Source of the DNA: Pleurocapsa minor GSE-CHR-MK 17-07R
GTDB lineage: Bacteria; Chloroflexota; Anaerolineae; Aggregatilineales; Phototrophicaceae
Direction of reading: 5' to 3'
Assembly: GCA_019359125.1 (NCBI GenBank)
Contig: JAHHHY010000007.1
Location: 23,355-87,354, forward strand
Length of the DNA: 64,000 nucleotides
Made by a program: the position numbers and the translations under genes. The notes under the pieces are model-generated. The model saw only the letters and a list, made by a program, of their open reading frames with translations. It had not been told where the DNA came from and searched no databases. Position 1 is the first letter of the stretch; each line of letters opens with the position of its first letter. Below, in pieces: positions 13,900 through 17,617 of this stretch.

Positions 13900-13972
13900 T
13901 CACATCTTCCCCTGCATAGCGAGGGGTGCACCAGGGCGCGATTGGCACGCGTTGGGGCAACCCTCGATCAGA

Positions 13973-14044
13973 ATAACATAATATAACAACTTGTCACGGC
14001 GTGTTTGAACGATATAATTAATGTATTCTGTTATATTATGTGAT
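13973..14044 (+). promoter_or_regulatory. Promoter (TTGTCA-16-TATAAT) bracketed by 13-bp perfect inverted repeat; candidate autoregulatory operator
   Basis: ACATAATATAACA (13976-13988) and TGTTATATTATGT (14029-14041); -35 at 13991-13996, -10 at 14013-14018. Confidence 0.75.
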
Positions 14045-14053
14045 ATTTATCCC

Positions 14054-14650
14054 ATGAGCGGTATTCCACTGGGCAGGCACAGGAAGATTATACAGGCCGT
14101 GCGCGATCACGGCAGCGTAACCATCGAGCAATTGATGGCGCTGACGGGCGTCTCGCACATGACGATTCATCGCGACCTGCATGCGCTGGCGGCGCAGGGC
14201 CTGCTGCGCAAGACGCACGGCGGCGCGACCAGTCTCATCGAAGTTTTGCCAGGCGATGCGTCCCCTGGCGCAGAGTCTTCGGCGTGCGCGATGTGCGGGC
14301 AGGCTATTTCCCCGCGTGTCGGCTTCACCGTGCGCCTGACGTCCGGCCAGAGCATCGCTACCTGCTGCGCGCACTGCGGATTGTCGGGGATGCAGCACAC
14401 GCCTATGGACGATGTGCGCGCCATCCTCACGCGGGACTTTCTGTATCAGCAGACGCTGGATGCGCGTGATGCCTGGTTCGTCATCGACTCGCAGGTCGCG
14501 CTGTGCTGTCGGCCTGGCGTGCTGTGTTTCGCCACACGCGACGACGCGACGCGCTTTCAGGCCGGTTTCGGCGGCAGCGTGCATGCCTTCGCCGATGCGA
14601 TGCGCCGGCTGACAACGGGTCATGCGCGGCGTCATGCCCATTCTGGTTGA
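14054..14650 (+). CDS. DeoR-type HTH regulator fused to TRASH/NosL-like Cys-rich putative metal-sensing domain
   Basis: HTH 'VTIEQLMALTGVSHMTIHRDLHALAAQGLLRKTHGGA'; 'CAMC-X22-CCAHC' and a NosL-like C-terminus 'AWFVIDSQVALCCRPGVLCFATRDDATRFQAGFGGSVHAFADAM'; 14021 ATG rejected because it precedes the predicted TSS. Confidence 0.75.
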   Translation: MSGIPLGRHRKIIQAVRDHGSVTIEQLMALTGVSHMTIHRDLHALAAQGLLRKTHGGATSLIEVLPGDASPGAESSACAMCGQAISPRVGFTVRLTSGQSIATCCAHCGLSGMQHTPMDDVRAILTRDFLYQQTLDARDAWFVIDSQVALCCRPGVLCFATRDDATRFQAGFGGSVHAFADAMRRLTTGHARRHAHSG

Positions 14651-14722
14651 GCGGGCCCCATCCTTTTCACAGCATCACACCATTCGATCGTCATGTTTCA
14701 TTCATCTACAGGGAGCATCATC

Positions 14723-15280
14723 TTGAAAAAGCTGTTCGGACTGCTGGGATTGGCATTGACCGCTGGCGCGCTGATGATCGGGCCGGTGCTGGCGCATGAA
14801 GGTCGTGAAGTCGGGGACTATGAAATTAATTTTGGGTGGCGCAACGAACCGGCGTTCGCCGGACAATTGAACGGGCCTGAAGTGTATATCGGCCTGCACC
14901 ACGGCGATGAGGTCTCTGACCCACAGGCTGTGCTGGAAGCCCTGGAAATTACCTTGCAGGCAGAGATTACCTTTGGGCCGGAGACTGTGACCGTGCCGCT
15001 GGAACCTGCCTATCCGTACTATGCCGATGGGTCGCTTAACCTGGTGGCCGATATCATCCCCACGCTGCCCGGCGACTATGTATTCCGCATCTTCGGCACG
15101 ATCGGTGATGCAGAGGTGGATGAGACCTTTGACAGCGCGGATGGCGAATTCTCGTCGGTCGAGCCGACCAGCGACATTCTGTTCCCGGCGGCTGGTGCGG
15201 CAGACCTGGACGCCCTGCTGGCGCGCATCGCCGAGCTGGAAGCGCGTCTGTCAGCATTGGAAGCTGCATCCGGTTCGTAG
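14723..15280 (+). CDS. Secreted protein of unknown function in copper locus
   Basis: TTG start 8 nt after GGGAG, signal peptide MKKLFGLLGLALTAGALMIGPVLAHEG; C-terminal coiled-coil heptads. Confidence 0.7.
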   Translation: MKKLFGLLGLALTAGALMIGPVLAHEGREVGDYEINFGWRNEPAFAGQLNGPEVYIGLHHGDEVSDPQAVLEALEITLQAEITFGPETVTVPLEPAYPYYADGSLNLVADIIPTLPGDYVFRIFGTIGDAEVDETFDSADGEFSSVEPTSDILFPAAGAADLDALLARIAELEARLSALEAASGS

Positions 15281-15331: not shown

Positions 15332-17617
15332 ATGTCCCCAGCCACACGCCCCACCTTCATCCTGATCGCTGCTGCCCTGCTGTGGCTGTTATTCCTCCCG
15401 CCTCAGGCCGCCCATGCCCATGCCAATCTCGCCGAGTCCCAGCCCGCGCCGAATACGCGGCTGGAGGCCGCGCCCGCTGACATCCGCCTGCGCTTCACCG
15501 AGCCGCTGGAACCGGCCTTCAGCCGCATCACGCTGCGCGACAGCGCCGGACAGACCGTCGACGTGCCAGCCGCCGCCCTGGATCCAGCCGACCCGTATGT
15601 GCTCGTCAGCGGAGCGATTCCGGCGCTGGATGCAGGCGTGTACACCGTGGTGTGGAGCGTGGTCTCGGCGGCGGACGGGCATTATACGCGTGGCAGCTAT
15701 GGCTTCTCGGTCGGCACGGAAATGGACGTCGCCACATCCCTTAGCCCGACGCCAACCCCAATCCCCCTCGCAGACACGCTCGTTCGCGGGCTGAATCTGG
15801 CCGGGCTGACGCTGCTGCTGGGTGTGCTGGCGTTTCGCGTATGGGTGGCCAAACCAATATCGGGTGATCGCCCTGTCATCGAACATCGCCTCATCCGTCT
15901 GCATCGGGGCGCGTGGCTGCTGGCGGGCGTCGGCCTGATGGGCATGCTGCTGCTTCAGCTTCGCCTGATCGCCGGGGATGATGCCACGCTGGGGGCCCAG
16001 CTTGCCCTGCTGCCGGGCACGCTGACCGGCACCCGTTTCGGTGGGCTTTTTCTCGCCCGTGCCGCCTTGTGGCTGGCGCTGGCCGCGCTGATCTGGTGGG
16101 GCCTGACAAGCTGGCGCGCACGGCTTGCGCTCGTGCTCACCGCTGGCATGCTGCTCACACAAAGCCTGTTCAGCCATGCCAGCGCCGCGCCGGATGCCGC
16201 TGCGGTCGCCGCCGACTGGCTGCATTTGCTGGCAGCAGGGACATGGCTGGGCGGACTGGTCGCGTTTATCGTGGTGCTGGGCGTGCCCCTGCCCGACAGC
16301 ACACGGATCGCGAGCGCCCTGACGGCGCGCTTTTCCAACCTGGCGCGTGCGAGTGTGCTGCTGCTGGCCATCAGCGGGGCGTACAGCGCATGGCTGCATG
16401 TGGGCAGTCTCGACGCGCTGACCGGGACGCAGTATGGCCTCAGCCTGCTGGTCAAGCTGGCGCTGTTTGTGCCGTTATTGGGCATCGCCGCGGTCAATCT
16501 GCTGCTGACGGCGCGCGCGCTTCGCCGGGGCGAGGACGTCTGGGTGGGGCGGCTGCGCGGGCTGATCGGCGTTGAGCTGGCGCTGCTGGCGGGCACGCTG
16601 CTGGCCGTCGGCGCGATGACCAGCCTTCAGCCTGCCCGTGCCGAGCTGTCCGCGCTGCGGACGCAGATGGTCGCCGCCGAGCCAGCCCCGTATTTTGAGA
16701 TGCAGGTGGCGCCCGATGGCGTGATGGCGCATCTGGAAGTCGAGCCGGGCTGGGCGGGCGAAAACGAGTTCATCGTCACGCTGTTCGATGAGCGCGGCGC
16801 TGCCGTGGAAGATGCCTCGCTGCTGCGCCTGCGTTTTGAGAATCCGGGGCAGGGCATCAGCGAGAGTAACCTGCGGCTGGAGCCGGTCGACCGCGGGACA
16901 TATCGCGCTTCCGGGGCCAACCTCAGCGCGTCGGGCGACTGGCAGGTGCGCATGACCGTGCGCCGTCCCGGAGCCTTTGACACAGTGCTGGACTTTTCGC
17001 CAACGGTGACGACTCAGCCGCTGCCCCGGCTGGTGCAGCCTGATGATGCGCCCGACGCAGCCGGCCGATTTGCTACCGCCGCGCTGGCTGGCCTGGCGCT
17101 GGCTGGCGCAGGTGGCGGACTGATAGCGCCCGCGCTGATGCGCCGTCCCATGGGTGGATTCAGGCTGACTGCGGGTGGCCTGGCGCTGTTTACCGGCCTG
17201 CTGTTCATCGTCACGGCGGCCGGGCTGTGGTCCCCTGCGCCAGCGGCTGGCGTCACGGCTGAGTCGGGGTGGGCACTGCCTGCGCGGGCCGGGGCCAATT
17301 CCAGCGTGTACGTCGTTGTCCGCAATGCGGACACGGCGGATCGCGTCCTGACAAACGCATCGTCTGAGGCTGCTGCACGAGTCAGCCTGCACAGCACCAG
17401 CATGTCCGCCGATGGTGTGGCCGCGATGATGCAGGTGAATGAGATACGCATCCCGGCCGGGGAAGCTTTCGCGTTTGCGCCGGGCGAGTCGCATCTGATG
17501 CTGGAGCAGGTGGCGCGCCAGCTCAGCCCAGGGGATGAAATCGTGCTGACGCTGTCGTTTGATGATGGCACGCAGGCGACGGTGCCAGTGCTGATTACGC
17601 TGGAGCCGCCGTTTTAG
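15332..17617 (+). CDS. CopC-CopD-PCuAC fusion protein (copper resistance/transport)
   Basis: N-terminal CopC (HAHANLAESQPAPNTRLEAAPADIRLRFTEPLEP), multi-TM CopD, C-terminal PCuAC motif (VSLHSTSM...MMQVNEIRIPAGEAFAFAPGESHLML). Confidence 0.88.
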   Translation: MSPATRPTFILIAAALLWLLFLPPQAAHAHANLAESQPAPNTRLEAAPADIRLRFTEPLEPAFSRITLRDSAGQTVDVPAAALDPADPYVLVSGAIPALDAGVYTVVWSVVSAADGHYTRGSYGFSVGTEMDVATSLSPTPTPIPLADTLVRGLNLAGLTLLLGVLAFRVWVAKPISGDRPVIEHRLIRLHRGAWLLAGVGLMGMLLLQLRLIAGDDATLGAQLALLPGTLTGTRFGGLFLARAALWLALAALIWWGLTSWRARLALVLTAGMLLTQSLFSHASAAPDAAAVAADWLHLLAAGTWLGGLVAFIVVLGVPLPDSTRIASALTARFSNLARASVLLLAISGAYSAWLHVGSLDALTGTQYGLSLLVKLALFVPLLGIAAVNLLLTARALRRGEDVWVGRLRGLIGVELALLAGTLLAVGAMTSLQPARAELSALRTQMVAAEPAPYFEMQVAPDGVMAHLEVEPGWAGENEFIVTLFDERGAAVEDASLLRLRFENPGQGISESNLRLEPVDRGTYRASGANLSASGDWQVRMTVRRPGAFDTVLDFSPTVTTQPLPRLVQPDDAPDAAGRFATAALAGLALAGAGGGLIAPALMRRPMGGFRLTAGGLALFTGLLFIVTAAGLWSPAPAAGVTAESGWALPARAGANSSVYVVVRNADTADRVLTNASSEAAARVSLHSTSMSADGVAAMMQVNEIRIPAGEAFAFAPGESHLMLEQVARQLSPGDEIVLTLSFDDGTQATVPVLITLEPPF

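Follow-up and report, generated by a model that had tools for sequence, protein, structure and literature searches.

How bacteria import copper and how they control this import is poorly understood. One regulator in this field is YcnK, which we take to combine an HTH of the DeoR type with a domain resembling NosL, and whose two primary descriptions are reportedly those of Chillappagari 2009 and Hirooka 2012. Within the literature covered here, YcnK has been studied only in Bacillus subtilis, where this HTH protein represses ycnKJI in a copper-dependent manner (PMC8424229, PMC12362106, PMC13344008), and the expression of ycnKJI is higher in copper starvation and lower in copper sufficiency (PMC12362106). 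A 2026 paper, however, describes cytosolic Cu+ as 'proposed to antagonize' YcnK, a wording by which the metal would act with the opposite sign (PMC13344008). The window analyzed here, i.e., the whole stretch of 64,000 nucleotides from a 4.85-Mb genome assembly of 23 contigs, encodes at positions 14054–14650 (+) a YcnK-like regulator of 198 residues that combines a DeoR-type winged helix with a NosL-type Cys-rich sensor domain, as evidenced by Pfam and by an alignment of 30 sequences. We conclude that this gene probably encodes a YcnK-type copper-responsive repressor of its own copper-acquisition operon, with Cu(I) as co-repressor. The initial annotation, whose list of bacterial copper sensors (CueR, CsoR, CopY, and CusRS) left out YcnK, had claimed a distinct class of sensor for this protein, and this claim had to be given up in view of the already known YcnK: the regulator exists and shows good conservation, yet it does not constitute a sensor class of its own. 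What is added here is modest and concerns the distribution of the regulator in this phylum, a candidate operator code, a set of invariant candidate ligands, and the association with PCuAC and with MbnP/MauG.

The reading frame at 14054–14650 is open, and a longer version begins at ATG 14021. ATG 14054 is the better start, as a promoter-like pair that ends at 14018 sets the transcription start near 14025. The DeoR-like HTH that had been recognized before is found at residues 8–61 (14075–14236, +; PF08220, E=3e-18, 66 bits versus a Pfam cut-off of 21), and the NosL-like segment is recovered as the second half of a NosL domain at residues 131–182 (14444–14599, +; PF05573, E ~1e-7, 33 bits versus a cut-off of 24), with the invariant C151-C152-x-P154 and a GFGG motif. 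The C-terminal sugar-sensor domain of classical DeoR/GlpR regulators has no Pfam match in the window protein, and the NCBIfam DeoR-family models cover only its HTH part. The protein begins straight with the HTH and is thus not built like the NosL chaperone, a secreted lipoprotein, and a signal sequence is absent from the whole family in the 30-sequence alignment, which comprises relatives from the genome survey, database loci, and one plasmid record. All 30 sequences match both HTH_DeoR and NosL at E≤1 (Pfam).

The candidate metal ligands C78-x2-C81 ... C104-C105-x-H107-C108 (14285–14377, +) are invariant in 30/30 sequences, as are C151, C152, and P154, the HTH residues R8, S34, T37, and R40, and the residues G171, F172, and G174; for these putative cysteine ligands and H107, the invariance over 30 sequences is far beyond chance. 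The CAMC sequence corresponds to C78-x2-C81, and with the spacings C81-x22-C104 and C104-x3-C108 the arrangement CAMC-X22-CCAHC indeed fits the C-X19-22-C-X3-C pattern cited for TRASH domains. This fit favors the earlier reading of the protein as a new copper-sensor class, unlike the known bacterial sensors, in which a DeoR-type HTH is fused to TRASH. However, while the NosL part of the proposed TRASH/NosL-like domain is borne out by profiles, the TRASH part has the spacing but no profile match: profiles of the TRASH/YHS/MYM type are missing both from the listing of 17 Pfam families that the window protein matches at E≤1 and from the 25 Pfam families that the 30 sequences hit most frequently. 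As NosL is matched by 30/30 members, and as YcnK appears to be a regulator of this sort in a similar operon, a new class of this type is extremely improbable.

The relation to NosL was further seen in a search against solved structures, in which the family profile matched NosL (7osf) with E=8e-6; no PDB chain matched the regulator family over its full length in this profile search. In the HMM alignment to the crystallized NosL, C151-C152 come to lie over the 'AM' of '..KGAMGAS..', in agreement with the initial view that Cys replaces a Met of NosL at the CC-RPG sequence, and the segment C78/C81 ... C104-C108 falls on the NosL motif CxxCG, a correspondence of motifs only. One homologue spans the NosL profile positions 5–127, which places its Cys-rich first part inside a NosL-type domain. 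For the C-terminal half, the structure prediction is of intermediate confidence (mean pLDDT 67.8, pTM 0.47), and Foldseek with the whole-protein model gave mainly HTH-type matches, none of them below E=0.001, with NosL being absent from the 50 listed matches; the model thus speaks neither for nor against an assignment to NosL. The search against solved structures also gave weak CTCF matches over the family-profile positions 70–111, and the spacing of C-x2-C and C-C-x-H-C is zinc-finger-like, as would be expected if these residues held Zn(II) in a structural role while C151-C152 alone responded, in this case to another thiophilic metal, e.g., Ag(I) or Hg(II), or to redox changes, e.g., oxidation. 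A structural homology of NosL to MerB of mercury resistance, as stated in the title of reference 341 of PMC7558416, would also be in line with such a sensor. Against this, the gene neighborhoods are copper-specific and the established relative YcnK is copper-dependent, and we regard the sensing of another metal or of redox as quite unlikely.

Downstream of the regulator and on the same strand, the window encodes a 761-aa fusion (15332–17617, +), a YcnJ-like CopC-CopD-YtkA protein with a C-terminal PCuAC domain, in which PF04234, PF05425, PF13115, and PF04314 all score above the Pfam cut-off. The CopC, CopD, and PCuAC functions that had been noticed downstream thus sit in one protein, together with YtkA. 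The gene of a small exported protein (14693–15280, +; its start may be TTG 14723) lies in between, separated by 42 nt from the regulator and by 51 nt from the 761-aa protein, and from these short gaps we infer that the three genes form one operon with a single transcript, with the small exported protein as probable second and the fusion as probable third gene product.

In the relatives, the gene after the regulator encodes a PCuAC protein, a CopC-CopD(-YtkA) protein, MbnP with a MauG-type protein, a DsbD_2/cupredoxin protein, or the small exported protein. PCuAC, CopC, or MbnP genes are found within 5.5 kb of 15/28 regulators, versus 0.20 expected from copper-family gene numbers and genome sizes (27 genomes, 28 loci), and the corresponding Poisson tail of 2.5e-23 is to be taken as an order of magnitude only, as the genomes are related and not independent. 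The association of the regulator with copper genes is not due to chance. The 13/28 loci without PCuAC, CopC, or MbnP within 5.5 kb include several on short contigs; four of the 13 have the small exported protein instead, and two have an MFS transporter downstream. With a C-terminus that matches NosL and a copper-gene association that is present, the copper-linked DeoR-HTH/NosL regulator is supported at the sequence level by the profiles, the invariant cysteines, and the neighborhoods. In two genomes that belong to one genus, the regulator is followed by genes for MFS-type proteins (L038:4603-5880 (-) and L043:64-1401 (-)) and not by a known copper gene; these proteins may be copper transporters. 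At L041:6594-9135 and L044:2888-5924, MbnP and a di-heme MauG-type partner are encoded directly downstream of the regulator, which suggests that these pairs, termed 'mysterious partners' in a 2013 paper (PMC3621798), are under copper control.

The small exported protein of 195 residues belongs to a family without a name and matches no Pfam family except for a weak coiled-coil tail; apart from this tail, it also has no PDB match, and its structural model is poor (mean pLDDT 56). Homologues adjoin the regulator in 6 other loci (L039:1791-2342; L042:2672-3262 (-); L050:6639-7157; L051:2457-2933; L053:6595-7095; L054:5324-5815 (-)). The family shares a signal-like N-terminus that is followed by an invariant Ala-His-x-Gly-Arg-Glu, and W49, E52, and E63 are likewise invariant. 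Cleavage at the Ala-His position would leave an N-terminal His. YcnI binds Cu(II) through its N-terminal His, a Glu, and a Trp (PMC12362106), and because the would-be N-terminal His, the Glu, and the Trp of the small protein parallel these ligands, it might take the place of YcnI functionally, the shared role being a guess.

The nearest named relatives of the regulator come from Anaerolineae metagenome assemblies, which makes a host from the Chloroflexota likely. Full-length relatives are present in 18/98 genomes of the same family and in 10/400 genomes sampled across the phylum, with the own genome counted in both cases, and 22/98 genomes of the family match at E≤1e-8, four of these 22 mainly via the HTH. 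With this locus and its relatives, regulators of the YcnK kind are seen in several families of a phylum other than that of B. subtilis. Relatives were found neither in viral contigs nor in phages. DeoR/GlpR regulators of Klebsiella plasmids were excluded, since they vanish when the C-terminal part alone is used as query; with this query, only a Stenotrophomonas plasmid protein stays among the plasmid matches. The large plasmid CP031730.1, labelled Stenotrophomonas rhizophila, encodes a YcnK-like regulator (L065:7983-8552) in the neighborhood of DsbD_2, cupredoxin, CopC, CopD, CcdA, DsbA, and cadmium/arsenic genes. Two YcnK-like regulators are encoded in genome G488 (L058 and L059), each with a PCuAC gene at a distance of less than 0.7 kb, and the regulator of L059 also adjoins a DsbD_2-cupredoxin fusion.

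Upstream of the window gene, a candidate sigma-70 promoter TTGTCA-16-TATAAT (13991–14018, +; 11/12 consensus positions) is flanked by the exact 12-mer ACATAATATAAC at 13976–13987 and its reverse complement at 14030–14041. These inverted-repeat arms belong to two candidate operators that each contain tandem half-sites 10 bp apart, the left one (13966–13989) being oriented leftward and abutting the -35 box, the right one (14026–14051) being oriented rightward and located at the expected transcription start. At ≤1 mismatch, TTGTTATATTATGT occurs only at those two places in the 4.85-Mb genome. The half-site TGTKATA is present in 29 copies upstream of 31 regulators (window included), in 18 loci, versus 2.0 +/- 1.3 in dinucleotide shuffles, and same-strand TTGTKATA pairs (≤2 mismatches) exactly 10 bp apart occur 34 times versus a mean of 1.6 and a maximum of 5 in 100 shuffles; these counts are descriptive and not an independent test, as the motif and the 10-bp step were first spotted by eye in the same sequences, and kinship of the loci inflates both counts. 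No upstream half-site was found at ≤1 mismatch for 9/31 regulators. The TTGTKATA arrays may represent a new candidate operator code. Tandem half-sites on one helix face and inverted pairs around the promoter would suit an oligomeric repressor, and the regulator presumably binds DNA as an oligomer.

According to the model that we prefer, the N-terminal DeoR-type winged helix would bind the TTGTKATA half-site arrays around the operon promoter, and the NosL-type C-terminal domain would bind Cu(I) via C78, C81, C104, C105, H107, C108, C151, and C152. With enough copper in the cytosol, the metal-loaded protein would sit on the operators to the left and right of the promoter and switch off its own operon, whose products, the small exported protein and the YcnJ-like CopC-CopD-YtkA-PCuAC protein, would serve copper acquisition and delivery; in copper starvation, the repressor would leave the DNA, and the operon would be switched on. 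That the metal is copper, that it acts as co-repressor, and that the regulator represses rather than activates would follow by analogy from YcnK and from the neighboring genes. The position of the left operator next to the -35 box is one used by activators, and the same family and operon could also function with opposite logic, the regulator being an activator, or Cu(I) releasing it from the DNA, with induction of the operon by excess copper. The proposed antagonism of Cu+ and YcnK (PMC13344008) would agree with this, as would archaeal CopR, another protein with HTH and Cys domain that is a proposed activator on metal binding (PMC7830388). Such a reversal is nevertheless unlikely, as the right operator overlaps the expected transcription start, ycnKJI expression rises when copper is scarce and falls when it is sufficient (PMC12362106), and the neighbors are trafficking or acquisition genes (CopC-CopD, PCuAC, MbnP/MauG), with no P1B-type copper exporter seen among those scanned. 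A rather doubtful but conceivable further reading is that the two NosL half-domains bring the clusters of the eight invariant Cys/His residues together into a polynuclear Cu(I) site that differs from the site in NosL, and that with an oligomer on 10-bp-phased half-sites the number of half-sites would tune the copper threshold for each operon. The proposed ligand set and operator code are explicit and testable.

Among the known systems, NosL, the periplasmic Cu(I) chaperone for nitrous oxide reductase, shares its domain family with the regulator, as judged by Pfam and by the HMM comparison with solved structures. In contrast to NosL, the regulator is without signal peptide or lipobox, its domain is fused to an HTH, CC replaces the Met of NosL, and there is an extra C-C-x-H-C. 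Archaeal CopR/CopT resemble the regulator in having an N-terminal HTH, a C-terminal Cys-rich metal domain, and copper genes close by (PMC7830388). They differ in that their HTH is of the Lrp type according to the initial annotation, their metal domain is TRASH and not NosL, and they are linked to the exporter CopA, whereas the window regulator is linked to CopC/CopD/PCuAC. The closest likeness is to YcnK and ycnKJI, where an HTH copper repressor likewise shares its operon with an importer-like protein of the CopC-CopD-YtkA type. A provisional, approximate YcnK sequence could be aligned almost end to end, with 33% identity over 194 positions (E=2e-32) and all Cys clusters kept, and this alignment is to be taken as a lead and not as proof. 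Among the control genomes, B. subtilis has a NosL-family match above the cut-off and also a CopC match, and the NosL match agrees with the NosL-like domain that we assume for YcnK. The operon order in the window mirrors ycnKJI, with regulator, small exported protein, and CopC-CopD-YtkA protein, but the small exported protein is without Pfam family where B. subtilis has the DUF1775 protein YcnI, the YcnJ-like protein has an extra PCuAC domain, and the host belongs to another phylum.
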